IMG/VR virus record: IMGVR_UViG_3300032083_002558
Location: 1-64,000 of that record
Direction: 5' to 3' (one strand)
Length of the DNA stretch: 64,000 nt
DNA from: a virus
The position numbers were made by a program, and so were the translations under genes. The notes under the pieces were generated by a model, which was not told the DNA's origin, did no database searches, and saw only the letters and a list, made by a program, of their open reading frames with translations. Of this stretch, positions 1 through 21,908 are shown in pieces; the first letter of the stretch is position 1, and each line of letters starts with the position of its first letter.

Positions 1-1327
1 GGAATTGTTTTAATTTCTTTTGAATTAATTTACTATTAAATCCTTTTGGAAAATACTTTTTAAAGTTTTTATAATTCACATTATCTGGTGAATATGACAT
101 AGCTCTTATGATAGCAAGAATTGAACTACCAACTCTATTCAAATGAGATTTATTATTCACATCAAAATTCTTAATTTTTGATTTAAGATTTCTAACTATT
201 TCTCTAACAAGAATGAATAGTATTTTTCTATCACTACCAGTTATAGCTTCATTCAATTGTTCTTTGATGATTTCTCTAATTTGTTCTCTTAATTTTTGTT
301 CTGATGTAAGTTTTCCTTCATATACTTTTTTATTTTGTTGAAGGTTTTTGAATAATTTATTTTGTTTATCATCAATTGTTTTATACTTCTTTGGATTTTC
401 ATTAAAATCCACAAGAGCATAATTTAACATCTTCATCCATTTAGTATCACTATGTTTTTTACGAAAATCAGATAGCATCTTAAAAAACTTATTCTTATCT
501 TTCTTAGCTTTTTTGTAAAAATAAAAAACATTTACTCCAGCAGAAACTTCTGTAAGTTTTCCTTCAGTCATTTGTTCTGATTTAGATTTCAAAAACTCAG
601 TAGCCAAATATCTTTCTCTTCCGTATTGAGCTTTTGTCCATTTCTTACTCATTGATTTAGGCATTTCACTCAATTCAACACCTTCGTTATTCACCATCCA
701 AGCAACTCTACGAGCGTCTGAATTATATACTTTCTTATAACGATTTTCTTCTAATTTTTTCATCCACATTCTTACTTCTTTGACGGTAAATCTTCTTTTC
801 TTAGATTCTTGAATTGATTCATCAAACTCACCATCCATAGCTTTTTGTTCAATATTATCCATCATTTCTTGAGCTTCAGCATCTAATTCTTTTATCTTAT
901 TAGTAGTTCCTTCTGGCGCTCTACCATCATTATTAAAAATTGATAGGCCAATATCAGATGCTCTTTTTTGTAAATCTTTTAATTTATCTACATATTCTTC
1001 AGGTATATTACCTTCATTATCATCTATAAATTCACCAACTCGGTTATGAGTTTGTTCAGCCTTTTCACCTACCTTAGTATCACCACCTAAAAATGATGGT
1101 TTATCTGGTACCAATGAGTCTGGTTTTTCTTTTTCTTTTTTAGAAAATGGATTTAATTTAGATAATTTAGAAAGAAACCCTTTTTTCTTTTTTGATTTAT
1201 CATCAGTAGGAGTTTTAGCAACCATATCTTTTGCTTTTTTGTTCGCAGGATGTTCATCAGGTAATTGTAAAGCAGTTCTTACTTTAATCATATTTCCTGT
1301 TTTAGGATTTTTGATTTCTTTGTCCAT
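1..1327 (-). CDS. Internal-head-type protein, C-terminus cut by window edge
   Basis: The minus-strand frame is open from the ATG at 1327 to base 1, so at least 442 codons are present and the C-terminus lies outside. The protein is Lys/Glu-rich. It opens with a segment beginning MDKEIKNPKTG, then a long acidic and basic helical region. Near the C-terminal part are 'MTEGKLTEVSAG' and 'REQIREIIKEQLNEA', which carry L-x-E followed by V or A, the cleavage type used by T4 prohead proteases (inference). No enzymatic motif is visible. A GGAAG lies five bases before the ATG. An in-frame GTG four codons upstream (position 1339) is an alternative start. The gene follows the actin-like gene by 34 bases. 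I do not recognise a named family; a virion or prohead-core role is suggested by context. Confidence 0.7.
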   Translation of the reverse strand, partial: MDKEIKNPKTGNMIKVRTALQLPDEHPANKKAKDMVAKTPTDDKSKKKKGFLSKLSKLNPFSKKEKEKPDSLVPDKPSFLGGDTKVGEKAEQTHNRVGEFIDDNEGNIPEEYVDKLKDLQKRASDIGLSIFNNDGRAPEGTTNKIKELDAEAQEMMDNIEQKAMDGEFDESIQESKKRRFTVKEVRMWMKKLEENRYKKVYNSDARRVAWMVNNEGVELSEMPKSMSKKWTKAQYGRERYLATEFLKSKSEQMTEGKLTEVSAGVNVFYFYKKAKKDKNKFFKMLSDFRKKHSDTKWMKMLNYALVDFNENPKKYKTIDDKQNKLFKNLQQNKKVYEGKLTSEQKLREQIREIIKEQLNEAITGSDRKILFILVREIVRNLKSKIKNFDVNNKSHLNRVGSSILAIIRAMSYSPDNVNYKNFKKYFPKGFNSKLIQKKLKQF

Positions 1328-1361
1328 TATGTCTTCCACAATGGCCTGTCTGATTAATTCT

Positions 1362-2402
1362 TTAAGCTGACTCTTCTTGATTTTCACCCTCTTCCTCCTC
1401 TATGAGTTGTGCTTCACTTAAACAACCTCTTGCGACTGCTGTATGAGCGTCTTCCACTAATGTGAATTTCTCTACTTCTATTGGAAACTCATCTTGATTA
1501 AATTGTTCACTTACTACTTCCATAAAACCTTTAACCAATGATGTTCCACCACCGAATACAATCGGTATAGCATTTGGGAAGTTTGGAACACTTTCAGCAT
1601 TATTGAACTGATTTGTTAAATTTGTTAATAAGTAATTCACTAATGCTCCGTAATAACTTCTGATAGCATTAATGATATTATACTCATCACTTCCCTCATT
1701 ATAAATATCATTTATTGCACTTTTTGTTAAATCCAAGTTCTTAGAACTTTCTTTTATTGAAATCACTTTTGCTTTTGTAACACCACAATCGTTTGCTACA
1801 CATTCATCTATCCAATCTCCACCTCTTGCTACAGAAAAGGAGAGTGCACTCATCCCTTGATACATCACACATACATTACACATTCCAGCACCCATAGATA
1901 TTGCAATCCCAGTTAAATCATTATCCACGAGTCCTTCGTAAGCGAGAGCAACACTCTCCTCTATAACTTTTACATCGTATCCATATGTTTCAATAATCTG
2001 TTTCAATACATCTTCGTGATAAGAAACTTCTCTTGTTTGGTCTATTGGTTTGGCTGGTATACAATAAACACAAGTTTCTTTACCTTTTGACTTACCTAGC
2101 AATTCACCAATAATTGCATTCAATACAGGTAGTGCATCTTTTTCTTTTGGATTTAATAATCCACTTGACATTGGTCGTTTTAATTCTGTTGTACTAAATA
2201 TTTGTGCATAATTAAAAGCGTGTTGTCCAACGATGTGAACTTTACCACCCTTTTCAACAAATGGTATTCTTTGTCTTTTTAACATTCGTTTAACTTGATT
2301 TGCATCTCCGTCAACAGTTAAGAATACATTTCTTTGTTTTTTTATACTATTTTCTGTGGCTGTTATATAATAACTTGTTCCACAATCTAAGCCTTTTGCC
2401 AT
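1362..2402 (-). CDS. Actin/ParM-like ATPase
   Basis: 346 residues with the layout of the actin/Hsp70/ParM ATPase fold. The N-terminal phosphate-1 loop is 'GLDCGTSYY' (residues 4-12), the second phosphate loop is 'SMGAGMCNV' near 170, and the adenosine loop is 'FGGGTSLVKGF' near 283. The C-terminus is acidic. Proteins of this fold in plasmids and phages form filaments that move DNA, or anchor it. A filament role here is inference; the sequence shows only the nucleotide-binding fold. It starts at an ATG one base after the stop of the small membrane protein upstream and lies among head-protein genes. It could instead be a monomeric chaperone-like ATPase. Confidence 0.75.
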   Translation of the reverse strand: MAKGLDCGTSYYITATENSIKKQRNVFLTVDGDANQVKRMLKRQRIPFVEKGGKVHIVGQHAFNYAQIFSTTELKRPMSSGLLNPKEKDALPVLNAIIGELLGKSKGKETCVYCIPAKPIDQTREVSYHEDVLKQIIETYGYDVKVIEESVALAYEGLVDNDLTGIAISMGAGMCNVCVMYQGMSALSFSVARGGDWIDECVANDCGVTKAKVISIKESSKNLDLTKSAINDIYNEGSDEYNIINAIRSYYGALVNYLLTNLTNQFNNAESVPNFPNAIPIVFGGGTSLVKGFMEVVSEQFNQDEFPIEVEKFTLVEDAHTAVARGCLSEAQLIEEEEGENQEESA

Positions 2403-2403
2403 A

Positions 2404-2715
2404 TTAACCTCTGAGTTTCTTTAGTTTATCTTTTTGGGTTTTAACCTTACCCTTAATTTTTTCGTCTAACTTTACACTAACTTCATCTGTTGTAGTGTCC
2501 ATTATTCTATTACTCTTTATATCTACTTCTATTGGCCCCATATTCTTTTTAACTTTTGTTTCTTCTATCGTTGAAGTTTTTATTACTTCTCCGATGTTTA
2601 AGTTGGGAGACTTTTGAAACTTTAAGTTTTTTGAAACCCATATTAGTAAAACATAACAACCTACAACTACCTGCCATATAAATAGACTAATGAATATAAA
2701 ATCAAACAATTCCAC
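2404..2715 (-). CDS. Small single-pass membrane protein
   Basis: 103 residues. Residues 5-28 form one hydrophobic segment rich in Phe, Ile, Val and Trp, followed by a Lys-rich cytoplasmic-type tail of about 70 residues ending in KLRG. The start ATG overlaps the stop of the upstream gene by one base, so translation is probably coupled. It sits between the 202-residue head-type protein and the actin-like ATPase. A membrane anchor for its neighbour is possible but not shown. Family not recognised. Confidence 0.65.
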   Translation of the reverse strand: MELFDFIFISLFIWQVVVGCYVLLIWVSKNLKFQKSPNLNIGEVIKTSTIEETKVKKNMGPIEVDIKSNRIMDTTTDEVSVKLDEKIKGKVKTQKDKLKKLRG

Positions 2716-3323
2716 TATTTACCTTTTACAAAATCTCCAAGTGCTGGTATATTAACTACACCACCAATATCTGATAATCTTTTTGGTTTTACTGATTCAT
2801 CTTTTTTGATAGCTTTAGATATTGCATCTCTTCTCTTTTTCAAATATTCATCTGAATCATCTACATCACCATCATTATCAACATCTGAATCTTCTTTCCC
2901 TACAGCATCTAATTTTTCTTCCATTTCAGAATCTTCATCATCGTGTCCATAAACATGAGCTTCATCTATTTCATAGTAACGATTCAATACATGTCCCATA
3001 TCTTCATACAATGCAGTCAATCTTTGATTTAAAGCTTGTGCTTCTTTAGCAGTTTTTGTAAATTCTACAACACTACCTTTTAATGATTTCATATTTTTAT
3101 TAATTGAAACTTTATCAAACCAATCATCTTGTTCACCTAAAATGTGATGATGTGCAGATTCTGCAACTTCTGATAATTGTTTTGCAATTTCAACTATGTT
3201 GTTATTATTATACAATTGTTTTCCAACAATACCAAAGTTCTTAACACCCTCAACAACTTTATATTTGTCAATTTGTGGTCTGTCTTCAAACGCTTCTGAT
3301 AATATGTCTTTTAATTTTGCCAT
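2715..3323 (-). CDS. Protein with capsid-targeting-like N-terminus
   Basis: I choose the ATG at 3323 (202 residues): a GGGAG lies eight bases upstream and the protein then begins [13 protein letters not shown], the ten-residue peptide ending L-x-E shared with other genes here. Other starts are an ATG at 3338 that overlaps the previous stop, and a TTG at 3347. The body is helical, with a His-rich 'SAHHHILGE' and a coiled-coil-like stretch. An acidic Asp/Glu linker near residue 135-165 precedes a Lys-rich tail. T4 internal head proteins carry a ten-residue N-terminal targeting peptide removed by gp21 after L/I-x-E, so packaging in the head is inferred. No enzyme motif seen. Confidence 0.7.
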
Positions 3324-3337
3324 TTTTATGTCTCCCA

Positions 3338-3625
3338 TTATTTCCAAAATATTATTTTAGCTATTATACCCAACACTAAAGTGTAAATACCCCATAGTGC
3401 AGTGGTTACATTTTGTTTAAAATTCTTTAATTCTGTTATATCTTGTATATCGATTTGTTTTCTCCAAAAGGTATTTTTATTTACTCTAACAATAATACCA
3501 TCTTCCGGGTCTAATAATACTTCTTTAATTTCTGTTACAGTTTGATGAATTTGTTCTAATTCACCATTCATTAGTTTTGTTTCAACACATTCTAACTTTT
3601 CTATAATATCTTTATTAGTAGCCAT
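3338..3625 (-). CDS. Small coiled-coil membrane protein, XhlA/holin-like layout
   Basis: 95 residues. Residues 5-40 are a charged amphipathic helix ('[20 protein letters not shown]'), then a short '[15 protein letters not shown]' segment, and residues 72-93 form one hydrophobic C-terminal segment ending FWK. A cytoplasmic coiled coil followed by one membrane span is the layout of XhlA-type phage proteins that assist holins, but similar proteins occur in virions. It begins with ATG sharing one base with the stop of the upstream gene. Lysis involvement is only a possibility; no endolysin gene is in the window. Confidence 0.6.
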
Positions 3626-4227
3626 TATCTTTTACTCGCTGTTCTGTTTTTCATTGCTTTTGTACCACCAAAGTATTTTCTAAATCTATCTACTATCTTA
3701 TCTTTAGTTAAAACACTTTGTAAAAATTCTACTTCATATGGATAAGCCCTTGACATATCACCATGTTGAAATCCTCTGACTAAATCAAAGAAATCAATCA
3801 CACCATTTTTTGCCTTTGTCATCCAATCCTTTACCACTTTACCTTGTAGTTTTCTTAATTCTTTTGAATATTTCCTTAAAGCATCATCAACAACCATCTT
3901 TGCTTCTTTTGATGAAAATGGTGGAGGTGATGATACACCACCAAATGATTCACTTAAATCACTATTTAATAAATAATCTCTTGACTTGTTTAAATAATTA
4001 GAAGCCAATGTGATTTTATCTGTCCACCACGCTGGTAAAGAATCCTCTTTATCCATAGATTCTAATTTCTTCAATAATTCTTCAGAGTCTTCAATTGATA
4101 ATTTTAACTTTCTAATAGCAGATGGAACATCAGTATGTCCGTCTTCATTGACTTTAAAAGGTTTTCTGTCTTTATCAGTATAAACCTTACCTTGTTCTAT
4201 ATCTTTTAATAAGTCTTGAAGTTTCAT
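3625..4227 (-). CDS. Conserved-looking phage protein, probable head component
   Basis: 200 residues beginning MKLQDLLKDIEQGKV, related to the targeting-like N termini nearby but without a clean L-x-E site. A 'VYTDKDRKPFKV' segment follows. Then comes a helical region with 'LPAWWTDKI' and 'YLNKSRDYLLN' near 85-115, a pattern I associate with unnamed proteins of marine myoviruses. The C-terminus is basic ('KAMKNRTASKR'). Starts with ATG overlapping the stop of the upstream gene by four bases, indicating coupled translation. Function unknown; the position among prohead genes suggests a virion protein. Confidence 0.65.
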   Translation of the reverse strand: MKLQDLLKDIEQGKVYTDKDRKPFKVNEDGHTDVPSAIRKLKLSIEDSEELLKKLESMDKEDSLPAWWTDKITLASNYLNKSRDYLLNSDLSESFGGVSSPPPFSSKEAKMVVDDALRKYSKELRKLQGKVVKDWMTKAKNGVIDFFDLVRGFQHGDMSRAYPYEVEFLQSVLTKDKIVDRFRKYFGGTKAMKNRTASKR

Positions 4228-4499
4228 CTATCTATTCCAATATATTTTGCTTTGTTTTTATTTAAAAATCTTTCTAAATCTTTTGTTCCTTTTGGATAAT
4301 AATCATTTCTATCACCAATTAAATGAAACTCATTAAATCCATTATCATAAAGTTTAAATTTTTCATTCTTTATTTGAACTACAATTCTTTCTCTTTCATT
4401 CCTTTTTGGTATAGATGATACCTCACCACCTGGCATATTCAAATACTTACCTTTCATTTTAAACTTTCCTTCTGATAATAAGTCTTTTAATTTAATCAT
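4224..4499 (-). CDS. Small protein with capsid-targeting-like N-terminus
   Basis: 91 residues beginning MIKLKDLLSE|GKFKMKG. The first ten residues match the window-wide consensus M-x-K-L-K-x-(L/I)-(L/I)-x-E, and the next residue is Gly, a preferred residue after the cut in T4 gp21 substrates. The remainder is a compact basic domain rich in Lys, Arg and aromatics ('EKFKLYDNGFNEFHLIG'), likely beta-rich. It overlaps the genes on both sides by a few bases. Inferred to be an internal head protein; no known fold recognised. Confidence 0.7.
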   Translation of the reverse strand: MIKLKDLLSEGKFKMKGKYLNMPGGEVSSIPKRNERERIVVQIKNEKFKLYDNGFNEFHLIGDRNDYYPKGTKDLERFLNKNKAKYIGIDR

Positions 4500-4779
4500 T
4501 TTTCATAGCCGTTTTAATCTTTTGTATATCAGCCATAAGTTGTTGTGGTGTCATACCAGCAGCATCAATTACTTTATACAATATAGCAGCTCTTTTCATT
4601 CTATTCAAGTTTGCACCTTTCATAGATTGAACAAATTTATCTAAGAATCTATTTACAACTGATGGTAATTTGATTTTATCAAAATTAATTTCATTAAGGT
4701 TTTCTTCCTTAATCATACCAGTTTCTTTACGAATCTCTTGATTTTGTTTTTTAATTAAATCTTTCATATTAATCATCAT
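4492..4779 (-). CDS. Small helical protein, putative internal head protein
   Basis: 95 residues. It begins MMINMKDLIKKQNQEI and contains 'ENLNEI' near residue 28, an L-x-E site that would remove a longer N-terminal piece if cut. The rest is mostly helical and basic, with 'NRFLDKFVQSMKGANLNRMKR' and a C-terminal 'DIQKIKTAMKND'. Close spacing to its neighbours (overlap of 8 bases downstream, 6-base gap upstream) puts it in the same transcript. Function unknown. Confidence 0.65.
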   Translation of the reverse strand: MMINMKDLIKKQNQEIRKETGMIKEENLNEINFDKIKLPSVVNRFLDKFVQSMKGANLNRMKRAAILYKVIDAAGMTPQQLMADIQKIKTAMKND

Positions 4780-4785
4780 ATACTC

Positions 4786-5715
4786 CTATTTTACAACTGC
4801 CCATAATGTGTTCATTAATTGCGTTGGACTTTTATATCCTATATCTGATAATATTTTTTTCATTTTAGGATTTACTTTTTTAAATACTTTTGTTAATAGA
4901 TTAGCTGTTTGCATATCTACTGTTACTAATCCTTTTTTAGTGTTGTAACCATATGCTTGTTTATCTTTCATAACTCTAGCAGCAACATCAAATATTGTTT
5001 CTTTTGCTTCTGTAAGTTTTCCTTCAAGTTTAATTGCTTTAGCTTCTGGACTATTATATTTACCACTCTTTTTTAATTTTTTCACTAACATTTTAGCAGC
5101 TCTTTCGTTTTTAACTACTTTAATAGTTTCACGGCCACCATCTGTCACTACCCACATACCTTGTTTAGCCATTCTTTGAACTGCAGCTGATTGTTTTTCT
5201 TTGAGTTTCTTTTTAATCAAATGAGGACCTGCTGGTTCTTCACCTAATTCACCATTCTCACCATATCCACAAGTTCCTTCACCCAATATATCTTTAGCTT
5301 TATCTGATAAATATTTTATATCTGCACTTGCTATTTGTTTTAAAACTTTCTTATCTGTTTTTTTCAATAATGTCACAATCTGTTGAACAAGTGGATTGTT
5401 ATCAGGTAAAGTTCCTTTCATATCCTTAAATGCTCTTTTTAATTGTTTGATGTGTGATGAACTAAATGGTATTCTTACTTCATTCATGTTAGCCAACTCT
5501 TCACGAACCATTTTCTTAATCAAGTTTCTAACTTTCATTTCTCTTTTCACCTTGTTTGGTAATCCTTTGTGTTTTGTTTTTGCATATTTATCAACATCTT
5601 TTTTCTTCATTGACTTAGCAACTTTTCCAGCTTCACCCTCTTTAGGTTTATCACCTTTTTGCATTGACTTTACAACACCAAAAAATCTTTGTTGAGCTTT
5701 TGATGATGCTGGCAT
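4786..5715 (-). CDS. DUF3008-type modular protein with internal cleavage-like sites
   Basis: 309 residues. The N-terminus (1-55, 'MPASSKAQQRFFGVVKSMQ...') matches the DUF3008 pattern of small basic proteins. Next comes 'VRNLIKKMVREELANMNEV', a helical motif of the IIxEE...L-x-E kind. Three more sites follow: 'DILGEGTCG', 'GELGEEPAG' and 'GKLTEAKET'. These separate a helical middle, a basic 'GMWVVTDGGRETIKVVKNERAAK' segment and a C-terminal domain of about 70 residues. If the prohead protease cuts at these L-x-E positions, the product is a polyprotein of small packaged pieces (inference). Start ATG overlaps the upstream stop by one base. No catalytic motif seen. Confidence 0.7.
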   Translation of the reverse strand: MPASSKAQQRFFGVVKSMQKGDKPKEGEAGKVAKSMKKKDVDKYAKTKHKGLPNKVKREMKVRNLIKKMVREELANMNEVRIPFSSSHIKQLKRAFKDMKGTLPDNNPLVQQIVTLLKKTDKKVLKQIASADIKYLSDKAKDILGEGTCGYGENGELGEEPAGPHLIKKKLKEKQSAAVQRMAKQGMWVVTDGGRETIKVVKNERAAKMLVKKLKKSGKYNSPEAKAIKLEGKLTEAKETIFDVAARVMKDKQAYGYNTKKGLVTVDMQTANLLTKVFKKVNPKMKKILSDIGYKSPTQLMNTLWAVVK

Positions 5716-6032
5716 TACATTAACTTTCTAAAATTCTTTTTATATTTTTTTGTGAAATCAACTATATTCTTTTTATAATTATCTAAAAAGTCAGCAGCTT
5801 CATCATTTAATCCTTTTTTTCTTAAACTATCATATAAATCCAAATAAGACTTTTGTAATCCTTTTAAAGACTTATCTATATTTTTAGCGTGTTTTTTATA
5901 TTCGAAAGCAGGGCCTTCATTTATATTAAACTCATCTTTGATAGATTCCAATACTTTATTCTGTTTAGGTTTGGATTCTTTTTTCTTCTTATCATTATAT
6001 CCCATTAAAGATTTATAATCCATTTTACTCAC
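5715..6032 (-). CDS. Small Lys-rich prohead-type protein
   Basis: 105 residues, about a quarter Lys, predicted all-helical. 'FNINEGPAFEYKKHAKNI' near residue 35 contains an I-x-E|G site of the prohead-protease kind. In T4 the gene after protease gene 21 is scaffold gene 22, and this gene occupies that place, overlapping the protease gene by eight bases. It is far shorter than T4 gp22 (about 270 residues), so a scaffold role is only a positional guess. It could be a core protein of the gp67/gp68 type. Confidence 0.6.
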   Translation of the reverse strand: MSKMDYKSLMGYNDKKKKESKPKQNKVLESIKDEFNINEGPAFEYKKHAKNIDKSLKGLQKSYLDLYDSLRKKGLNDEAADFLDNYKKNIVDFTKKYKKNFRKLM

Positions 6033-6648
6033 CCCTAAATATATCGTTAATTATATTTTCAATTTTACAATCGTGACAACACACACCATCTCTTGTTCCA
6101 ACACCTTCGTGTAATTTACCTTCATTTGTTGGTGATAGAAATGCTCCGTGTGTAGATGGATTTGATACGAAATCAAATGCAATAAGTTCAAAGTCTGGTT
6201 GAACCTCTACTGAATCATCTTCATTCATTTCTTTTACTGAACCTAATCCTCTCGATGATATACCTAATTTAATACCACTTTTAAATAATTCTTTTAAGAT
6301 GTTTCCAGCTGGTGTACCAAGTACTTCAACTGTTCCCATTAAATCATTGTCTTTCCAATGCATTTCTAATATATTATGAGAAACATTGTTTAGATTCACC
6401 ACAGACGAGTCAGGATGGTCAAGTTCACCTAATGCTCTTCGTTCTTTAATTTGAATTTTTGAATATTTTTCGGCTTCTCGCATTAAAGTTTCTCGTGGAT
6501 ATACTCTTCCATTTTGATTCTTTGCTTCTGCTCTTTGTAATACACCTTTAACAACCAATCTTCCATCATTGTTTTTCATTGACTCATTGATTTGTTGAGG
6601 GGAAACCTCAAATGGTATATAATCTACTATTACTTGTTTTGACATCAT
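6025..6648 (-). CDS. 21: Prohead core protease, T4 gp21-like
   Basis: 207 residues with the layout of the T4 gp21 family (peptidase family S80, herpesvirus-assemblin-like fold). 'RVYPRETLMREAEKY' near 48-62 is typical. 'ALGELDHPDS' supplies the predicted catalytic His78, and 'KLGISSRGLGSV' the predicted catalytic Ser (131 or 132). It acts in the prohead, cutting core and capsid proteins after (L/I)-x-E. Its own sequence has candidate self-cutting sites at 'INE22|S' and 'LHE181|G'. The tail beyond the second has a 'CCHDC' cluster that may bind metal. A start two codons after an in-frame Met is possible. It ends in an overlap with the next gene. Confident family assignment. Confidence 0.92.
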   Translation of the reverse strand: MMSKQVIVDYIPFEVSPQQINESMKNNDGRLVVKGVLQRAEAKNQNGRVYPRETLMREAEKYSKIQIKERRALGELDHPDSSVVNLNNVSHNILEMHWKDNDLMGTVEVLGTPAGNILKELFKSGIKLGISSRGLGSVKEMNEDDSVEVQPDFELIAFDFVSNPSTHGAFLSPTNEGKLHEGVGTRDGVCCHDCKIENIINDIFRGE

Positions 6649-6654
6649 TGTCTC

Positions 6655-7122
6655 CTATCCTATTACAAATTCTGCAGTTCCTGTTATCTCACCTGCTATT
6701 ACTTGCCAATTGTCACCATCATACATTAAAGTTACACTTCTTCCAGGAAGATTTGATGTTAAGGTATTACCAGCTGCAAAATTAGCTGGTGTGATAACTA
6801 AATCATTACCGCCAAGTCTTGTACTATGTACTATTCTTTTTACTTGTCCTAAAATTCCATTAGCAAGTGATACATGTGTTCTAGAACCAGCAGAAACACA
6901 CAATGATGTTGTAGTCTTTAAAGATAAAGGTACAGCATTATCTGCACCATTACCTCCTAAAACTGGTCCCTCCAAATCTTCACCTGGTGAACCACTGGCG
7001 TTTTGTGAATCAGAAATTCCAGGGTCTAACGCAAATCCCAAAGCCTTTTTCTGTTTTGGTGTTAAACCAGTTCCATAGTCTGATGTTAATATTTGCTTTT
7101 TACCTTGAAATAAAACTCCCAT
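6655..7122 (-). CDS. Virion surface-type protein, copy 1 of a tandem pair
   Basis: 155 residues. The N-terminal 'KQILTSDYGTGLTPKQKKAL' and the second half ('HVSLANGILGQVKRIVHSTR', then 'DLVITPANFAAGNTLTSN', then 'YDGDNWQVIAGEITGTAEFVI') match the next gene closely. The C-terminal half looks like a beta-sandwich. The region near 35-60 is Gly/Asp/Ser-rich. Such small beta proteins beside the prohead protease are often capsid decoration or head-fibre proteins, which is inference. It overlaps its paralogue by one base. Confidence 0.65.
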   Translation of the reverse strand: MGVLFQGKKQILTSDYGTGLTPKQKKALGFALDPGISDSQNASGSPGEDLEGPVLGGNGADNAVPLSLKTTTSLCVSAGSRTHVSLANGILGQVKRIVHSTRLGGNDLVITPANFAAGNTLTSNLPGRSVTLMYDGDNWQVIAGEITGTAEFVIG

Positions 7123-7574
7123 TATGCTATCACCATTTCTGCTGTTCCTGTTATCTCACCAGCAACTACTTGCCAATTTAAACCATCAAATAATAATTGA
7201 ACAGCTCTAGCAGCTGCATTTGAAGTTAAGGTATCACCAGCAGCAAAAATACTATCACCACCAATTCCATCCTCAGGTGTGATAACTAATGCATTACCAC
7301 CCAGTATTGATTTATGTATAATTACTTTTAATTGTCCTTCAACACCCTTACCTAATGTTACATGTGTTGCACTAGCTTTTGTTGATACTAAAGACACTGT
7401 GGTTGTTGATGATAAAACTGTTGCATTACTTGTACCATTACCAGCGATTACAGTTTCAGTACTATAAACAGTCGGTTTTAATACCCAAGCTCTACTGAGT
7501 TTTTGTTTACTAGTTAAACCTGTACCATAACCTGATGTTAGAATCTGTTTATCACCATCTATTATTTTTGGCAT
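7122..7574 (-). CDS. Virion surface-type protein, copy 2 of a tandem pair
   Basis: 150 residues, paralogue of the adjacent gene: 'KQILTSGYGTGLTSKQKLSRA' at the N-terminus, 'HVTLGKGVEGQLKVIIHKS' in the middle, and 'FDGLNWQVVAGEITGTAEMVIA' at the C-terminus. The two differ most in the linker near residues 35-60, as expected for an exposed or adaptive part. Both are likely virion proteins made in similar context, from one ancestral duplication. Exact role (decoration, fibre base) unknown. Confidence 0.65.
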   Translation of the reverse strand: MPKIIDGDKQILTSGYGTGLTSKQKLSRAWVLKPTVYSTETVIAGNGTSNATVLSSTTTVSLVSTKASATHVTLGKGVEGQLKVIIHKSILGGNALVITPEDGIGGDSIFAAGDTLTSNAAARAVQLLFDGLNWQVVAGEITGTAEMVIA

Positions 7575-7584
7575 TTATAAACTC

Positions 7585-7890
7585 CTATTTCCAAGCATTT
7601 CGTTTCAACCATATATCTCTTAATATATCGCCAACAACATTTCTAATTAATTTTGTTATTTGTTTTAAATCTTTATCATCAATAGCTTCTTTTACAAATG
7701 TAAAACCAGTGCTCTTTTTAAATCTTTTTTTCTTTTTCTTTTCATCTTCTTTTGAACTAAAAGCAAATGGAGTTGAATATCCTGCAACATTACCAGTGGT
7801 GGTTATTTCTTCTAAACTTTCTTCGTCTAAAAGTTCAAGTGTTAGTTTTTTAACTAACTCTTTAAATAACTTTCTGTTTTTTATTTCCAC
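7585..7890 (-). CDS. Small Lys-rich protein of the head cluster
   Basis: 101 residues starting at GTG within the end of the upstream gene (29-base overlap). The N-terminal amphipathic helix 'KELVKKLTLELLDEESLEEI' is followed by 'TTTGNVAGYSTPFAF', a run of Lys and a C-terminal helix ending 'KRNAWK'. The 'TTTGNVAGY' segment followed by a Lys block looks like a conserved element of marine phage head proteins, though I cannot name the family. Position between portal and protease genes parallels the small core genes 67 and 68 of T4 (positional inference). Confidence 0.6.
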   Translation of the reverse strand: MEIKNRKLFKELVKKLTLELLDEESLEEITTTGNVAGYSTPFAFSSKEDEKKKKKRFKKSTGFTFVKEAIDDKDLKQITKLIRNVVGDILRDIWLKRNAWK

Positions 7891-8737
7891 TTTTTTTCAC
7901 TTCCTTTACAAGTTCTAAATATCTCATTGTTTGAATAACATACTCATCTTTAACAACATCTGATTTATCATCAATACCACAGAATTTGTTAATGGATTTT
8001 ATAGCTTCACTCATTTTGATTTTTACAACTTTATCTTGTAAGTTTTTAGAATGTGTTTGTAAATCTTTCTTTAAACCTTTTACAATCTCTCTTAAAGTAT
8101 CTTTTAATGAATTAGTATTAGATACATTGTTAATATACTCACGAAGTAGATTCTTTTGAGCTGAACTTAATTTTGTATATTTTTGATTAAATTTTTCTAA
8201 AAGGGTTCTATAAGTTAATATTCTTAAATCTTCATCATCTGGTAAAGTAGTAACAGTTTCTGATAACTTAATAGATTTGTCAGTTGTTGTCACATGTTCC
8301 ACAATATTAAAATGTGATTCTGTTTTTTGGTCAGGTGACAAAGATTTGTTATATTCAAATAATGTAAAAATAGATGCGTAAGTTTTATAATGTGGAACTT
8401 TAGAAGACATAAATTTCTGTAGATTATAATTAGATTGAATCTCTTTAATTAAATTATATCTCTCTCTTCTAAGTGTAGAATTATTTAAATCTTTTCTGGC
8501 TTTCATAACTTCATTAATGAAGTAATCAGCCTTTGTATCAGACTTAAATTTCTTTGTTATTAATATATTGTATAGAGCTAGTTCTTTACCCAACTCCGTG
8601 TTTTCGTTAAACTTTTCTTTAACGATTTTTACCGCTAGCCCATTGTCTTTATTTAGCACATCAGATGTAATCTGCCTTAGCAAAAATTCAAACAATAAAC
8701 CTGTGTTGCGGATTTTATTGTGTTTAACTTTACGCAT
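7862..8737 (-). CDS. Helical head-cluster protein, possible prohead core/scaffold
   Basis: 291 residues, Lys-rich and mostly helical, beginning MRKVKHNKIRNTGLLFEFLLRQ. The C-terminal third is highly charged ('EIVKGLKKDLQTHSKNLQDK'). No catalytic motif is seen. It lies directly downstream of the portal gene, in the region that in T4 encodes prohead core proteins, and its helical, charged composition would fit a core or scaffold protein. That role is inferred from place and composition only. A copy of the 18-bp intergenic motif lies about 41 bases before its start. Confidence 0.65.
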   Translation of the reverse strand: MRKVKHNKIRNTGLLFEFLLRQITSDVLNKDNGLAVKIVKEKFNENTELGKELALYNILITKKFKSDTKADYFINEVMKARKDLNNSTLRRERYNLIKEIQSNYNLQKFMSSKVPHYKTYASIFTLFEYNKSLSPDQKTESHFNIVEHVTTTDKSIKLSETVTTLPDDEDLRILTYRTLLEKFNQKYTKLSSAQKNLLREYINNVSNTNSLKDTLREIVKGLKKDLQTHSKNLQDKVVKIKMSEAIKSINKFCGIDDKSDVVKDEYVIQTMRYLELVKEVKKSGNKKQKVI

Positions 8738-8777: not shown

Positions 8778-8795
8778 ATTCATATATAAATATAA
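8778..8795 (-). promoter_or_regulatory. 18-bp repeated intergenic motif, copy A
   Basis: Coding-strand sequence TTATATTTATATATGAAT, identical to copies at 24986, 27091 and 49509. It lies in the 81-base gap between the portal gene and the next gene, 41 bases upstream of the ATG at 8737. Candidate phage promoter; the other strand reads TATAAATA, the T4 late-promoter core, but pointing away from the gene. Confidence 0.5.
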
Positions 8796-8818: not shown

Positions 8819-10603
8819 TTATTCCTCTTCATCTAAAATAATTTCTTCATTTAACATAGATTTATCTAAATCTTTACCAAACTTATCTTTAAGTGAATTT
8901 AATAAACCTTCTCTTGCAACAATCGTTCCACCTTTTGATGTAGCCAATGGAGAACCACCTTTAAACTCTCGTTTTCCATATCGTTCTGTTTTGTGTTTTG
9001 TTGCATCTTTTATATCTTTGGCTGAGTATTCATTACCAAATTCTTTCTTACCAGTTCCACTTCGTCTATCCCCACCATGTTCACCACTCTGTTCTTCCAT
9101 ATCATCAGTTGGTTCTGTTCCTTCATCGGCTGGGTCTGTTCCCTCAGTTTCAATTTGTTCCATTCTAAATTGTTGTTTTCTATCTTCAATCACACCATTG
9201 AATACATCAACTTTTTCTTCATCATTTAACTCAAAAATATTATCATATATCCATTGCCTTGAAAATAATTTGTTTTCAATCAAGTCATTAGCAATATCTT
9301 TTTTCTGTGTTAATAATTCTAATTTCTCTTGTTGATGTATCATTGATGGATTTGTTAACTCTAATTCAAAATTAATCAACTCAGCATCATCAAACCCTTG
9401 TGTGTATAAGTGAACAATAGCAATCTTTTCTAATTCAGCTACAATAATTTTTTGTAGTCTTTCAATTGTTCTTGCGAATCTAACATCTTCAGCTGCTAAT
9501 GTAGCTTTTGAACCTACATTCTCATCATATCCCAAAAATGCTTTAGGAACTTTAAGAGCTGCCATCATTTTATTTTTTAAATACTCTACATCTTCAATTG
9601 CACCATCATTACCCAAACCTGGTAAAGTATCAATTTGAGTTCCACTATCACCACCACGAACAGGTAAGTAATAATCTTCTGTTACGGATTCCATATTGTA
9701 TTTTAAATTATATTCACCATTTGCATTCATCACAGGTGTCTTTTTCATTTTACCAATAATTTGTTGCATAAAGTTATCTACTTCATTTGGAGGTATATTA
9801 CCAATGTCAACTTTGAATACTCTTTTCTCTGGTGCTCTCATCATACGATGAATCAACATAGCGTCTTCCATAAGAGTTAATTGTTTAAATACTCTTCTTG
9901 CACCTTCTAACATTGATTTACCATAAGGTAAGTAATTTGTATCTGCAAGATTTCTGAAATGAGCAACTTCATAATTTTCGTGAACATCATTTGGTTTTGA
10001 ACTTCTTGTTGATTCTGAATATTGTTGAATTTCAAATTGAACTAATTTAGGATTACTTGGGTCATGTCCCTCTAATCTATTTACTTCATATACTGAAAGA
10101 GGTTTTACATTAACAACTCCGTGTTTATCCAATATATCTAAATGTAAGTAGAAATCACCATATTTAACCATATTTCTAATATAACTCCATAGATTAAATT
10201 CAATGTTTATTATGTCATAAAATAAGTTATGTAAAATTTTATGGACTTTTGGATTATTAGTTTTAATTTTCATTATTCTGTTTTCAATATTATCAACCGT
10301 AGATTCATCACAATAAATATCCAATGCTGATGATATGATTGGGTCTGCATCCATTAATTCATAATCTCTAAATAATTCTTTTCTAGCTACATCATACGCA
10401 CTTGCATTTTGTTTGGCTTGATATGCTGAATTACCATATCCACTTGAATTAATTCTATTATATCTATCAATAAAATTAGATGTTAGTGCAGTTTGAGAAA
10501 ACTCGACATCCTTGACTTTTACTTGCCCGTCATTTGTTTTTCTAACTACAATTTGATTTTGAAATAATTTTCCTAATTTCTGTAATATATTTTCGTCTGC
10601 CAT
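8819..10603 (-). CDS. 20: Portal vertex protein, T4 gp20-like
   Basis: 594 residues, close to the length of T4 gp20 (about 520) with an added acidic C-terminal tail. Diagnostic segments include 'RKELFRDYELMDADPIISSA' and 'ALDIYCDESTVDN' in the N-terminal third. 'RAPEKRVFKVDIGNIPPNE' and 'LGYDENVGSKATLAAEDVRF' lie in the crown/stem region. The portal is a dodecamer at the head vertex through which DNA is packaged and ejected. The tail after residue 485 is Glu/Asp/Gly-rich and ends 'SMLNEEIILDEEE', with an L-x-E site that could be trimmed by the protease. It follows the terminase gene by ten bases, matching the T4 17-20-21 order with genes 18 and 19 missing between. Confidence 0.9.
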   Translation of the reverse strand: MADENILQKLGKLFQNQIVVRKTNDGQVKVKDVEFSQTALTSNFIDRYNRINSSGYGNSAYQAKQNASAYDVARKELFRDYELMDADPIISSALDIYCDESTVDNIENRIMKIKTNNPKVHKILHNLFYDIINIEFNLWSYIRNMVKYGDFYLHLDILDKHGVVNVKPLSVYEVNRLEGHDPSNPKLVQFEIQQYSESTRSSKPNDVHENYEVAHFRNLADTNYLPYGKSMLEGARRVFKQLTLMEDAMLIHRMMRAPEKRVFKVDIGNIPPNEVDNFMQQIIGKMKKTPVMNANGEYNLKYNMESVTEDYYLPVRGGDSGTQIDTLPGLGNDGAIEDVEYLKNKMMAALKVPKAFLGYDENVGSKATLAAEDVRFARTIERLQKIIVAELEKIAIVHLYTQGFDDAELINFELELTNPSMIHQQEKLELLTQKKDIANDLIENKLFSRQWIYDNIFELNDEEKVDVFNGVIEDRKQQFRMEQIETEGTDPADEGTEPTDDMEEQSGEHGGDRRSGTGKKEFGNEYSAKDIKDATKHKTERYGKREFKGGSPLATSKGGTIVAREGLLNSLKDKFGKDLDKSMLNEEIILDEEE

Positions 10604-10613: not shown

Positions 10614-12227
10614 TTATTTAATTAACCAAGTTAAATCTTCTTTTTCACCTACACCATTATCCATTTCATATGGATTTTTAGATGGTTGTCCAATAGAACC
10701 TATTCCAAAACCTGCCGTGTGTTCCGATTTGTTTCCATTTGACTTCAACATTGAGTTCATTGTTGCCCATTGTTGGTCATTTTTGTCTTTCTGTAGTCTA
10801 AGAGCTGTATCTCTAACCCAAAGTGCTATTGAATAAGACATAACTAAGTCGTCATTGTAACCTTGCATTGCTTCTGCTTTTGATTGTGAAACTCCAGTCT
10901 TGTATATAAATACAAATAATTCATCAATTAATCGATTTGAGTGAAGTTTTACTAATTTTTCTCTTGTATATTCCTCCATTTTAGCTATTGCTAATGGACG
11001 AGTCTTTGCTGTTGTTGAAAAACCAGGCACCATATTTCTATCTTGTGCTCTGTATTTATTTGTAATGTTATGTTCCGTATCAACAACTTGTAAATCTTTT
11101 GATTGATAGAATAGATTCTTATACCCTCTATCAATAATAGTTTGTATTGTAGCCCAACCGATATTGTTGTTCTCAACTACCAATAAAGCATCATTATATT
11201 TTGTTGCAACTTCAATTAAGAAGTTTCCATAATCCGTTGTACTCAATTGTCCTTTGTATTCAGCACATTGTTCCATATCTTCTACTTCAAATACTTGACA
11301 AGCAGAAAAGTCACTTCCATCACCACGAGCCACATCAGCAACCACTATATATTCTTTTGTATAATCAGGTTGTCTCCAAACCCACATACCTCTATCTATT
11401 CCAACTTCCTCTACAGGTGCTTCTATCATCTCATCTTTATACCATTGTAGAATTGCAGGGTCAACTACACTTCGTCCACTTGATAGAAAATCTGTATCAC
11501 ATTCTTGAGCAGCTTGTGACGGCCCTAAAATCTTATCTTGTTCATCTCTCCAAACTTGGTCTCTTTCAGGATGGTCTGTCCAATGAAGTTTGATTGTATT
11601 AAATTGATTCGTACCTTCCTCAGCACCTAACCATTGTTTATGAAACCAATTACCCACACCATTAGGTGTTGATAAAGCAATACATCCACCACCAGTTGAT
11701 AGTGTTTGTTGAGCAGCTGTCCATATCGTATCAATTCTATCAATGAACGCCGCCTCATCAATTATCAAAAGAGATAATGCTTCTGAACGACCAGCAGATT
11801 CATTTGAAGCAATTGCTTTAATCTGTGAACCATTTTTAAATCTTAATGATAATTTATTTATCTCTTCCGTTCCAGTCTTCAACCATTGAGGCATTCCCTC
11901 ATACATCACTCTAACTTTTGTAACAAGGTTTTTAGCAGTTTCTTTACCTGTAGCAATAACAAGAATGTTCTTATCATTGTGAAATAACATCAACCACAAA
12001 GAGTATCCAGCTGATAAAGTCGATATACCTAATTGTCTAGCTTTTAAAATAATATTATAACGATTATCTTTAAATTCTGTTAAACACTTTTCTTGAAATG
12101 GATATAAATCAAACTTCACCTTACCTTTTGTAGGATGTTGAATAGTACAATACTTTCTCATAAAATGTACCGGGTCAGATGCACATTTCAAGTATTCCCT
12201 TTGTATAGCTTGTTTTAAATCACTCAT
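10614..12227 (-). CDS. 17: Terminase large subunit, T4 gp17-like
   Basis: 537 residues: an N-terminal packaging ATPase and a C-terminal RNase H-fold nuclease. The ATP-binding loop is 'LKARQLGISTLS' (61-72), a deviant Walker A in which the usual GK(S/T) lysine is absent and Lys62 may serve instead, as proposed for some other terminases. Walker B is 'LLIIDEAAFID' (153-163). Nuclease acidic motifs are 'VVADVARGDGSD' near 297, 'LLVVENNNIG' near 350 and 'YNDDLVMSYSIALW' near 460. It cuts concatemers and pumps DNA through the portal encoded next. The first base of its gene region lies one base after the stop of the upstream membrane-protein gene. Confidence 0.92.
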   Translation of the reverse strand: MSDLKQAIQREYLKCASDPVHFMRKYCTIQHPTKGKVKFDLYPFQEKCLTEFKDNRYNIILKARQLGISTLSAGYSLWLMLFHNDKNILVIATGKETAKNLVTKVRVMYEGMPQWLKTGTEEINKLSLRFKNGSQIKAIASNESAGRSEALSLLIIDEAAFIDRIDTIWTAAQQTLSTGGGCIALSTPNGVGNWFHKQWLGAEEGTNQFNTIKLHWTDHPERDQVWRDEQDKILGPSQAAQECDTDFLSSGRSVVDPAILQWYKDEMIEAPVEEVGIDRGMWVWRQPDYTKEYIVVADVARGDGSDFSACQVFEVEDMEQCAEYKGQLSTTDYGNFLIEVATKYNDALLVVENNNIGWATIQTIIDRGYKNLFYQSKDLQVVDTEHNITNKYRAQDRNMVPGFSTTAKTRPLAIAKMEEYTREKLVKLHSNRLIDELFVFIYKTGVSQSKAEAMQGYNDDLVMSYSIALWVRDTALRLQKDKNDQQWATMNSMLKSNGNKSEHTAGFGIGSIGQPSKNPYEMDNGVGEKEDLTWLIK

Positions 12228-17285: not shown

Positions 17286-17546
17286 TTACATAACATTTTT
17301 GTTAAACCAAGCTTTTAATTTAGTGCTTAATTCATATGAATCGTCATCATTAAGTTTTCTTGATTCTTTTCTCAATAAACCAATTATTTTAGTAAAAGCT
17401 CTATCGGCTTTTCCTTCTGTAATTTTTTCTTCTGCTTTAACACAATTACGATATGTTTTACCAAACATTTTTTTTGTTTTACGAGTTGGATGTGTCTTAT
17501 ATCCTTTTTGACACTTTTCTGATATTAAGTCTTTTAATTTTACCAT
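17286..17546 (-). CDS. Small basic protein with capsid-targeting-like N-terminus
   Basis: I prefer ATG 17546 (86 residues) to the TTG at 17561. It then starts MVKLKDLISE|KCQKG, one of the ten-residue peptides ending L/I-x-E. The body has 'YKTHPTRKTKKMFGKTYRNC', a basic segment I associate with unnamed phage proteins, then a second site 'KITEGKADRAF' (I-T-E|G) and a helical C-terminus. The gene overlaps the upstream gene by seven bases. Expected to be packaged in the head and trimmed twice, leaving small basic peptides (inference). Confidence 0.7.
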   Translation of the reverse strand: MVKLKDLISEKCQKGYKTHPTRKTKKMFGKTYRNCVKAEEKITEGKADRAFTKIIGLLRKESRKLNDDDSYELSTKLKAWFNKNVM

Positions 17547-18658
17547 GTTCGACACGCCCAATATCTAGCTTTATATTTTGGTCCTGGATTATCACAATTA
17601 TGTCTTGCTCTAAATGATTTTCTAGCTCCAGGATTTGATTTTCTGATTCTCATCGTTCCACCTTTAGCATCACCACCTTGTCCAAAATGAACAACTACTG
17701 TATTACCTTTATCATTCTTTACATAAACTTTAAACTTTTTCTTATCACCTTGCATGATTTTATTTAATTTAACTTTTCTACCTTGATATTCTGCTTCTTG
17801 TAAATCCTCACCATTAAATTCAAAGGTATATCCATATCCTTTACCATTTACTTCATAGTAAACTTCTTTTACACAATTAGGCACCATCTTGTCACCTTTT
17901 TTCTTCATACCAAGTTGTTTATATCCAACCCAACAAGTTCCTCGTTTTTCTTCAATTGATTCTTTTTTAGATTTATTGCCCCAATTCTTAGCACCTACTT
18001 TTCTACATTTAACCAAAGCACCACTCGCATAAGCAGAAGGCCATACATCATATCTTGCTTTTACTTTATGATAACAAGCATCTTTCTTTTCTGATAATAC
18101 TTCACAATACTCTTCAAGAATAATTTCTGTTAATTTTTCTTTGGATATATCCATTACACTCTCCGATTTTTTCTTTTTACCAGCACAGTGTGCTTTTTGA
18201 CTGAATCCTTTTGGATTACTACAATCTATTGACTTTTTATATTTTTGACTCCAACCTTCATTTTTCTTTTTAGTAATCTTTTTCATCTTATTTATATAAG
18301 CTCTATAAACACCAGCTTGAGATGTTTTACCCATCTCTTTTGCTCTTTGTTCCATAGCTACAGCTGCTTGTATTTTGTGAGCGTGTGATTTACCACTTCC
18401 GTTTATTTTACTCACACTAGCTTTCGCATCTTTTACCGTTGCAAACTTTAATCCTTTAATAGTTCCCTTTGGGTTCTCATCCGTGTATAAATCCGAATGT
18501 TTCTTTGAACCTGCTGGTTGTCCTTTTTTTCTTGGTACTCTTGGATTCTTTTTTTCACCCATTTTAATTTGTCCTAAAGGCCTTGGCCCACATCTCTTTC
18601 TATATTGTGCATCACTTTCACCTGACTTCTTTCTTCTTGGATTACAATTCTTAGGCAC
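17540..18658 (-). CDS. Modular basic protein with conserved viral-type domains
   Basis: 372 residues, strongly basic, with several short modules. They are an Arg/Lys-Pro N-terminus ('NCNPRRKKSGESDAQYRKRC'), 'SGKSHAHKIQAAVAMEQRAK' near 90, and 'IDCSNPKGFSQKAHCAGKKK' near 145. A linker 'KLTEIILEEYCEVLSEKKD' (170-190) has L-x-E sites. Then comes 'ARYDVWPSAYASGALVKCRK', a DUF5872-like segment, and a C-terminal domain ending 'RARHNCDNPGPKYKARYWAC'. Eight or more Cys recur in C-x-N or K-C patterns. These modules recur in unnamed proteins of marine phages and large viruses. Likely packaged and cleaved; biochemical function unknown. Confidence 0.65.
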   Translation of the reverse strand: MPKNCNPRRKKSGESDAQYRKRCGPRPLGQIKMGEKKNPRVPRKKGQPAGSKKHSDLYTDENPKGTIKGLKFATVKDAKASVSKINGSGKSHAHKIQAAVAMEQRAKEMGKTSQAGVYRAYINKMKKITKKKNEGWSQKYKKSIDCSNPKGFSQKAHCAGKKKKSESVMDISKEKLTEIILEEYCEVLSEKKDACYHKVKARYDVWPSAYASGALVKCRKVGAKNWGNKSKKESIEEKRGTCWVGYKQLGMKKKGDKMVPNCVKEVYYEVNGKGYGYTFEFNGEDLQEAEYQGRKVKLNKIMQGDKKKFKVYVKNDKGNTVVVHFGQGGDAKGGTMRIRKSNPGARKSFRARHNCDNPGPKYKARYWACRTW

Positions 18659-19367
18659 CTGTTTTCACCTTAGTGGTTTTTTGTCCTTTACTTTTTTCAC
18701 CACCTTTTTTAGAATCACCTGCTTTTTTCTGTGCAGCTCTTTTTCTATTAACAAAAGCCGCTATACCTTTCTTTCCAAGTTTTGCTGCTTTGTTAGCAGA
18801 TAAACATGCAGCATATGCATCACCTTTTTTACCACCACCACATTTACCAAGTTTTTTACCTGTTGAACTATATCTATCCCAACCACCAGCAGTAGTTCCA
18901 CCAGCTCCACCTTTTTTAAACCATTGACTTAAATTTTCATTAGTGACTTCAGGTTGTTGAGCTCTATCAATAATCACATTAACATGTAGTTGAATGAAGT
19001 GTGTATCTTCCTCTTCTTCACCGTGTCCAGTTATTTCTGCAATTCTACCTAATTGAAAAGAAATCGTATTACACAATTTAACGGCGTGGTCGATTGGGTC
19101 GTGGTTTAATGGTTCTTGAGCAACAACTTGTTTTTCCATTTCAAACAAGTGGTCGAAATCTTTAGCTGATTGAATAACTAATTCTTTAGCATCTTCATTT
19201 TGTTTTAATTTTTCATAAAGAGTTACAGCAGATTTACAAATATCAAAGTGTTTGGTTTGATAACCAAATATATCAATGTTTTCACCACCACCAAAATGTT
19301 CAGGTGCATTTTCTGGATATTTGTTTTCTTGTTCTTGTTCAACTAATAATGTTTTTAATTTAATCAT
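18651..19367 (-). CDS. Protein with capsid-targeting-like N-terminus and basic C-terminal domain
   Basis: I choose ATG 19367 (238 residues): GGGA lies six bases upstream and the protein begins MIKLKTLLVE|QEQ. A longer frame to 19412 exists, but it is occupied by the overlapping cysteine-rich peptide gene. Residues 15-150 are an acidic helical domain ('CKSAVTLYEKLKQNEDAKEL', 'EEEEDTHFIQLHVNVII'). Residues 160-215 form a Gly/Lys-rich module ('SQWFKKGGAGGTTAGGWDRY', 'KCGGGKKGDAYAACLSANKA') of a type seen in unnamed viral proteins (DUF6321-like). The tail is a Lys/Gly stretch. Probably a packaged protein; function unknown. Confidence 0.68.
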   Translation of the reverse strand: MIKLKTLLVEQEQENKYPENAPEHFGGGENIDIFGYQTKHFDICKSAVTLYEKLKQNEDAKELVIQSAKDFDHLFEMEKQVVAQEPLNHDPIDHAVKLCNTISFQLGRIAEITGHGEEEEDTHFIQLHVNVIIDRAQQPEVTNENLSQWFKKGGAGGTTAGGWDRYSSTGKKLGKCGGGKKGDAYAACLSANKAAKLGKKGIAAFVNRKRAAQKKAGDSKKGGEKSKGQKTTKVKTGA

Positions 19368-19434
19368 TGTGATTCCCTTGACAGCAATCACATTCACATT
19401 TACAATTTTCACAACACTTACAATTACTCATCAT
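19360..19434 (-). CDS. 24-residue cysteine-rich (metallothionein-like) peptide
   Basis: A tiny gene between two others. It starts at ATG 19434 (or the adjacent ATG 19431), with GAGGAG a few bases upstream, and its start overlaps the stop of the 73-residue gene. Its stop overlaps the start of the next gene in an ATGATTAA arrangement. The peptide is MMSNCKCCENCKCECDCCQG followed by NHND: eight Cys in sixteen residues with C-x-C, C-C and C-x2-C spacing, the pattern of metal-thiolate clusters. Metal binding is inference. Coupling at both ends argues for a real gene. Confidence 0.65.
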   Translation of the reverse strand: MMSNCKCCENCKCECDCCQGNHND

Positions 19435-20522: not shown

Positions 20523-20523
20523 A

Positions 20524-21510: not shown

Positions 21511-21521
21511 TTCATTTCCTC

Positions 21522-21899: not shown

Positions 21900-21908
21900 A
21901 ACCTTCTC

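Follow-up and report, generated by a model that had tools for sequence, protein, structure and literature searches.

The gene at positions 1362–2402 on the minus strand of the window (the whole 64,000-nucleotide stretch analysed here, taken from an uncultured virus contig of 67,902 bases) encodes, by its profile matches, an actin of the Volactin family and not a ParM. We propose that this protein would form a membrane-tethered filament that organises virion assembly, a reading to which we give a probability of about 0.48. It builds on the family membership and predicted fold of the protein, an intact ATP site, purifying selection on the gene, its conserved pairing with a gene for a small membrane protein, a C-terminal tail which that protein has in common with a second phage protein, and the joint presence or absence of the three genes. 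To our knowledge, most phage-made cytoskeletons described are tubulins (PhuZ), beside a few actins that segregate DNA. The PhuZ spindle of nucleus-forming jumbo phages, as described in the accounts available to us, is alike in being a phage-made cytoskeleton that organises infection, whereas it is built of tubulin rather than actin and belongs to different phages. If our reading is true, T4-like and huge phages would have in volactin an actin from another family, one linked both to the membrane and to head genes.

The volactin gene and its predicted ATP site

The open reading frame marked here by the first-pass annotation is borne out, being intact on the minus strand with 346 codons for amino acids, while the same interval read on the plus strand contains 21 stops (the GC content of the window is 30.9 %). 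Paired in turn with the genes of 79 same-clade relatives, the window gene gives a median dN/dS of 0.12, which corresponds to purifying selection, and we therefore regard it as a maintained gene.

The protein matches the Volactin family of Pfam (PF25216) with an E-value of 1.8e-74, scoring 251.5 bits where the cut-off is 35, over profile positions 1–321 of 321. Its MreB_Mbl score of 25 bits lies below the cut-off of 27, no ParM/StbA family is among its Pfam matches at E ≤ 1, and no match to Hsp70 of Pfam was found. In alignment A1, at E ≤ 0.001, Volactin is matched by each of the 27 viral rows and MreB_Mbl by 17 of them. The PHROGs match, to phrog_691 ("partition protein"), is weak and partial (E 0.002). 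In a profile search of PDB sequences MamK came first (1.4e-13), followed by FtsA, MreB and BeeR, and only the profile reached these. VolA (HVO_2015) of Haloferax volcanii belongs to the same Pfam family and has the actin fold; the accessible text of its report describes dynamic filaments and membrane patches formed in vivo and an effect on cell shape (PMC10869688).

An AlphaFold2 model computed with a 34-row alignment (A2) of phage, bacterial and archaeal sequences has the actin fold, with a mean pLDDT of 89.5 and a pTM of 0.88. The nearest solved structure is the MamK filament (Z 27.9, rmsd 3.0 over 298 residues), then Mbl, the BeeR filament and MreB at a Z of about 26 and eukaryotic actin at about 25, with actin-fold matches spanning residues 1–339 of the 346-residue model; Foldseek likewise gives MreB at E 1e-13. 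Close as MamK, Mbl/MreB and BeeR are in structure, their sequences are only 14–19 % identical to volactin. Where the first-pass annotation had spoken of an actin/ParM-like protein, the assignment to the actin superfamily stands, with filament-forming members nearest, and the ParM-like label gives way to Volactin, MamK and MreB being among the nearest solved structures.

The three nucleotide-binding loops that had been read from the sequence are present and are invariant across the 34 rows at the residues named below, to which K217 is added:

1362..2402, minus strand: volactin gene, intact ORF of 346 aa, matching PF25216 over its full length
2373..2393, minus strand: phosphate-1 loop, residues 4–10 (G-x-D-x-G-T), with D6, G8 and T9 invariant
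1956..1958, minus strand: E149, invariant, aligned with the E of SEPF in MamK
1875..1898, minus strand: phosphate-2 loop, residues 169–176 (S-x-G-x-G-M-x-N), with S169, G171, G173 and N176 invariant
1806..1820, minus strand: GDWID loop, residues 195–199, with G195, D196, W197 and D199 invariant
1539..1553, minus strand: adenosine loop GGGTS, residues 284–288, with G285 and G286 invariant

We take E149 to be a possible hydrolysis-supporting acid, in the role it has in MreB-type actins. In the volactin of one huge-phage relative (L109:9968-12178) an intein, with 56.6 bits for Intein_splicing against a cut-off of 35.8, immediately follows the phosphate-2 loop, and in two others, L113 (L113:9968-12049) and L114, a different intein-like insert sits directly before the GDW loop, scoring 32 bits in L113, just below the cut-off. 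These positions agree with a working ATP site, because inteins tend to occupy conserved active sites.

With this fold and this site, volactin is very probably a filament-type ATPase, one that would polymerise. The alternative of a monomeric, chaperone-like assembly ATPase of the actin/Hsp70 superfamily, similar to EutJ and folding or maturing head parts, would suit the location of the gene among head genes, and EutJ does appear both as the top PDB match of the single sequence, at a non-significant E of 0.098, and at rank 43 in Foldseek. We nevertheless consider it unlikely, given that the nearest structures are filament formers, that Hsp70 is missing from the Pfam matches, that no substrate-binding domain is seen in a model spanned by actin-fold matches, that VolA polymerises and that volactin has a conserved membrane partner. 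A monomeric Hsp70-like fold had been named in advance as the result that would count against filament formation, and the fold predicted here is that of actin.

Head-gene neighbourhood and the membrane adaptor

Toward volactin the window runs through terminase, portal, prohead protease, small core-like genes and a transmembrane (TM) protein, in keeping with the setting of head-type and membrane-protein genes described by the earlier reader:

10614..12227, minus strand: large terminase (PF03237 2.3e-08, phrog_2 5.7e-50)
8819..10603, minus strand: portal, gp20-like (PF07230 1.7e-72)
6025..6648, minus strand: prohead protease, gp21-like (PF03420 3.1e-28, phrog_207 4.7e-55)
2404..2715, minus strand: TM adaptor, 103 aa, stop 1 nt before the volactin start, one predicted transmembrane helix
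2407..2538, minus strand: conserved adaptor tail, residues 60–103, ending KGKVKTQKDKLKKLRG, common to a second phage protein in relatives
2..1387, minus strand: core-like gene after volactin, its start overlapping the volactin end, cut by the record end (large single-linkage cluster 0, a loose grouping)

Because the record stops 1.36 kb past the 3' end of the gene, that flank is known from relatives only. In the T4-like relatives volactin lies between the prohead protease and the bS21/capsid genes, with core-like genes after volactin in many loci. Past these the order is bS21, a scaffold-like gene (so called from position alone, with no Pfam or PHROG match naming it), the gp23 capsid gene (PF07068, 1e-75), a neck-type gene (a head-tail adaptor PHROG, 2.2e-11) and later the tail sheath. 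The bS21 cluster is present in 75 of 81 contexts, its Pfam identity having been tested on one member (L040:5010-5261, PF01165 4.3e-14). We observe that bS21 stands on the same strand as the volactin and capsid genes between which it lies, whereas the phage bS21 near capsid genes already known is, in the available text, on the opposite strand (PMC9723584). In two huge-phage groups, whose volactins are related to those of LR745208 (huge-A) and LR756511 (huge-B), the positions are as follows: in huge-A loci L083 and L100 the gene is near a sheath-like gene, judged by eye and left without a name by Pfam and PHROGs, and in huge-B loci L190 and L193 it is directly before the large terminase.

Such positions could point to a structural or packaged protein, with volactin or the tail-bearing proteins described below built into the virion or prohead core, and the location among head genes in T4-like phages, beside TerL in huge-B and near the sheath-like gene in huge-A would all fit. 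The volactin N-terminus is without the leader-like start seen on several neighbours, however, and an ATP site so conserved suggests catalysis, which makes this explanation very improbable in our view.

Two further features of the region may be recorded. Six window proteins (2715–3347, 3625–4227, 4224–4499, 17286–17561, 18651–19412 and 24168–24959), chosen by eye out of 8 that a loose pattern had flagged, begin with a short KLKxLLxE-like peptide that resembles the leader by which T4 internal proteins are targeted to the capsid. Between protease and portal, the genes at 6655–7122 and 7122–7574 are tandem duplicates, with a 129-nt stretch 77 % identical at a spacing of 467 nt.

Upstream of several genes of the window we found a motif close to ATATTTATATATGAA (core TATTTATA) that begins 24–55 nt before gene starts and is possibly a promoter. 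The core has 8 sense copies in 7 intergenic gaps, against a shuffled mean of 1.0 and a maximum of 5; one "gap" entered in the count (1–1361) is really coding. The T4 late-promoter word, TATAAATA, has 0 copies in the window intergenic gaps scanned, and no Rfam family reaches its gathering score within the window.

8785, 14070, 24993, 27098, 39679, 41844 and 49516/49522, sense on minus: intergenic copies of the ATATTTATATATGAA-like motif
8785..8792, minus strand: nearest upstream intergenic TATTTATA copy, perhaps the promoter for a run of genes of which volactin is the last

The adaptor gene is a regular companion of volactin in these phages. Its family is the immediate upstream same-strand ORF in 55 of the 74 loci having any upstream ORF, and among the 54 loci whose sequence extends 1.5 kb or more upstream of volactin, a search with the tail profile detects a tail protein in the first 1.5 kb in 53, all but L062. 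A hydrophobic stretch (19 residues, mean hydropathy 1.72 or more) occurs in 69/69 members over 80 aa, and since positive charges follow this stretch in the nine members printed, the C-terminus is probably inside. The AlphaFold model (mean pLDDT 61) has a confident helix at residues 2–30, is disordered between about 31 and 93 and shows a short helix of low confidence at 94–101, with the C-terminal 45 residues forming the conserved part of the protein. It is on balance likely that the adaptor would tether volactin to the membrane in vivo.

ParR is the adaptor encoded beside ParM, and its tail is the likely actin contact, as we suppose for the adaptor here. An actin fold with an adaptor-like gene next door, which resembles the ParR/AlpA layout, could also mean segregation of the ParMRC or AlpAC kind, in which filaments push or pull phage DNA by way of a DNA-binding adaptor at a centromere site. 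AlpC and its co-transcribed adaptor AlpA, of prophage CGP3 in Corynebacterium, segregate in this manner according to the accessible text of the report, where alpA and alpC are early genes (PMC4446434). AlpA binds DNA and serves replication, whereas the T4-like adaptor has a membrane helix and a tail in common with a neck-region protein, and Pfam and PHROGs recognised no DNA-binding domain in it or in the nearby genes scanned, a search that diverse ParRs could escape. Neither a centromere-like nor an iteron array is among the 20 largest direct-repeat families listed (window 1–8000 and L040) or in the tandem-repeat list, where the volactin gene itself holds only two repeats, of 11 and 13 nt in 2.2–2.4 copies. 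The gene lies among head genes rather than early ones, and its family is an actin family different from ParM, with the phage partition family matching weakly and in part. ParMRC-type segregation by volactin thus finds little support, and we judge a role of this kind highly unlikely. The first-pass remark that the gene has no centromere-like repeat or DNA-binding partner beside it agrees with these scans, and among the functions it offered, the positioning of capsids or an assembly role fits the gene location better than the positioning of replicating DNA.

A second protein with the same tail and the proposed role

In T4-like relatives a second protein, encoded between the neck-type and sheath genes about 5–7 kb past volactin, carries the tail of the adaptor without a hydrophobic stretch (0/16). 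Aligned by hhalign, the two tails match at 98.7 % (E 3.5e-16), with 0 of 100 column-shuffled decoys as good. A motif, L[KR]x[LM][KR] within the 20 C-terminal residues, which was drawn up with the tails already in view and takes the T4-like ones as its model, is found in 9/13 adaptors and 10/10 second proteins against 19/1834 background C-termini, these being non-redundant counts in which the members of each set are related, so that tests on them are not independent. Redundant tails were removed before the profile comparisons and motif counts; the contig-cut second proteins of L014 and L028 were left out of the tail profiles, alignment, motif counts and hydropathy count, and that of L004 was left out of the first three and kept in the hydropathy count. 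On L040, a 113-kb contig scanned as pieces over all but its last 475 bases, the motif occurs in the adaptor and the second protein only among 382 stop-to-stop frames of at least 60 codons, and no other tail-profile match falls below E 1. The window has the motif in the adaptor only, because the record stops short of where the second gene would be expected. In L040 the second tail protein adjoins a gene for a cysteine-rich protein with a Hint/intein-like domain (L040:10843-12006).

The three genes are jointly present or absent in the loci compared. Wherever a volactin-anchored locus extends as far as the sheath gene, the second protein is there (10 of 10). Searching with the L040 capsid protein yielded a capsid-anchored set of at least 80 loci, 46 of which cover the region to the protease or volactin (5 with volactin, 41 without); of 80, 34 do not cover this upstream region and 64 do not show the sheath gene. 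Among the 16 with the sheath in reach, the second protein is found in 5/5 with volactin, 0/3 without, and 6/8 whose volactin status is undecidable. The volactin-positive loci are 55–80 % identical to L040 in capsid sequence. A sister group at 51–55 % (L293–L354) holds all 41 volactin-negative loci and keeps the protease-to-capsid order, and in it volactin, adaptor and second protein were not found at E 1e-5 in 62/62, only 41 of which cover the upstream region. Volactin is also absent anywhere in 10 chosen volactin-negative contigs (32–238 kb, from part of the 62 loci, and possibly fragments), and is present in 7 of 8 positive-clade contigs, the eighth, L280, having no more than 1.7 kb of sequence before its capsid gene. 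The joint pattern is probably one gain or loss event, which links the three genes and does not count as many independent events. Since the volactin-less sister group keeps the head-gene order, volactin is not a general requirement.

The adaptor looks like a dedicated partner, since the tail conserved next to volactin is found again on a second protein near the neck genes. Taken together, the actin among head genes, its putative tether to the membrane and the further partner encoded near the necks fit a filament that holds or moves heads at the membrane, and we suggest the following sequence. Volactin would be made late, with the head genes, and would polymerise on ATP; the C-terminal tail helix of the TM adaptor would bind the filament and so tether it to the inner membrane; and the second protein, through the same tail, would link assembling heads or necks to the filament, its association with necks being suggested by gene position. 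In this way proheads would be held or moved at the inner membrane, and virion assembly would be spatially organised. This seems reasonable beside T4, whose prohead assembly starts on a portal bound to the inner membrane, as stated in the available text of PMC9958956.

A single-helix membrane adaptor, an MreB-like fold and the effect of VolA on Haloferax cell shape are also what one would expect if volactin and the adaptor instead disrupted or re-used the host cytoskeleton or envelope (shape, division, lysis timing), with no direct part in assembly. Such a host takeover leaves unexplained both the location among head genes and the occurrence of the same tail on a protein encoded beside neck-type genes, and we regard it as improbable next to the tethered assembly filament.

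Volactin and similar tails in other groups

A search of IMG/VR gave 132 confirmed relatives of the window protein (the best 80 of 132 at 72–95 % identity), 30 huge-A relatives of the LR745208 volactin, two of them at 100 %, and 108 huge-B relatives of the LR756511 volactin, of which the best 80 were kept. Among 50,697 annotated phage records, three tblastn queries matched only the two uncultured huge phages LR745208 and LR756511, and no cultured phage with volactin was found. In GTDB genomes there are 288 matching stretches; the best 80 of 288 are mostly from Planctomycetota, the other taxa among them being Omnitrophota, Archaeoglobaceae, Thermoplasmatota, Halobacteriales and Methanolobus. As far as sequence assignment goes, the family thus reaches beyond haloarchaea to Planctomycetota, Omnitrophota and viruses. 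In the literature on VolA, AlpC, phage tubulins, bS21 and T4 heads that lies within reach of a full-text search, with subscription papers and bioRxiv-only preprints mostly outside that scope, we found no report of volactin in phages.

One cellular match, L195, comes from a Pelagibacter MAG; its 72 % identity and its adaptor tail mark it as a phage contig. Pelagibacter was set aside as a host, the label being that of the MAG bin. The virus of the window is of T4 type and probably marine, a setting suggested by this MAG and by IMG sample numbers. Among cultured phages the nearest capsid proteins belong to phages of Flavobacterium and Microcystis, at about 50 %, and to one of Rhodothermus, at 34 %.

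A 76-row tree (10 of 81 T4-like, 12 huge-A, 14 huge-B and 40 cellular rows, volactins outside 320–370 aa, whether intein-bearing or truncated, being left out) supports huge-A, huge-B and the T4-like group with L195 each at 100/100. It sets T4-like, huge-A, Planctomycetota and Omnitrophota apart from archaea at 99/95, with huge-A joining the bacteria at only 87/81. The tree is midpoint-rooted, with several long branches.

Tails of a similar kind stand before volactin elsewhere. In Planctomycetota the product of the preceding gene (51 clustered proteins, 3/51 with a hydrophobic stretch) ends like NIEVKQK..GGGIAANLARLKKLKGG, and in huge-A an ending like ..ALSALKALRKxxK is seen on 25 proteins whose genes lie no more than 3 kb upstream, in some cases separated from volactin by another gene. 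Profile comparison gives 90 % for Planctomycetota with huge-A, 71 % for the T4 second protein with huge-A (best decoy 24.2 vs. 24.4) and 49 % for the T4 adaptor with huge-A, each with 0/100 decoys as good; Planctomycetota with the T4-like tails reaches only 14 % over 9–11 columns, with 1 and 0 of 100 decoys as good and reversed decoys at 13.2 and 15.7 vs. 17.5. Across groups, single sequences are non-significant: the T4 adaptor profile finds its best cellular upstream protein at E 11 and its best huge-A tail at 0.076, and the second-protein profile finds these at 1.8 and 0.23. The likeness across groups is therefore one of profiles and is weak for single sequences. In the non-redundant sets the post hoc motif is found in 11/26 upstream proteins of Planctomycetota and 11/16 of huge-A, and in 0/9 of archaea and 0/54 of huge-B, the huge-B proteins having a conserved end of their own (WAIPDF..KINFGK). 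An archaeal upstream protein was considered as a tail relative and rejected, at 0.2 % against Planctomycetota (9/100 decoys as good) and 0.15 % against T4-like tails (35/100). Judged by eye, the few Planctomycetota loci that were printed look chromosomal, and so the partner they have in common with the phages would most simply be volactin itself.

In archaea a membrane protein is encoded before volactin in 12 of 12 loci with upstream sequence:

L255, L259–L262, L265–L267, L270, L271, L273 and L274: archaeal loci with an upstream membrane protein (DUF7139 in L271)

A membrane partner therefore recurs with an unrelated protein, and in this respect the archaeal relatives compared here are like the window. 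They differ in that the window protein is phage-encoded among head genes with a different, one-helix protein upstream, and in that VolA acts in cell shape whereas the role proposed here is virion assembly. A broader version of the proposal, which we hold to be doubtful and put forward tentatively, is a membrane-anchored phage actin cytoskeleton for virion assembly with interchangeable adaptors (a TM anchor, a neck-region protein and other soluble proteins) that would have a short C-terminal volactin-binding tail in common in phages and Planctomycetota. The tail motif offers a testable partner motif for volactin, whose binding factors are called as yet unknown in the accessible text of the VolA paper (PMC10869688).

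Several smaller observations were made in the course of these comparisons. The 595-kb LR756511 encodes a gp23-like capsid protein (523524–524954, 31.6 % to L040) about 24 kb away from its huge-B volactin (548810–549799). Several huge-B loci have a homing-endonuclease-like gene just before volactin, with a GIY-YIG domain in L190:3674-4432. In Omnitrophota, L242, L247 and L249 have two neighbouring volactin-family genes, and L247 and L249 encode a further downstream protein with an LRKLR-type tail. The window holds a 177-bp tandem repeat of 2.9 copies (38391–38898) within a 1971-aa ORF and, at 19759–23684, several genes with signal- or lipoprotein-like starts, which we would guess may hint at a host on the Bacteroidota/Marinimicrobia side.
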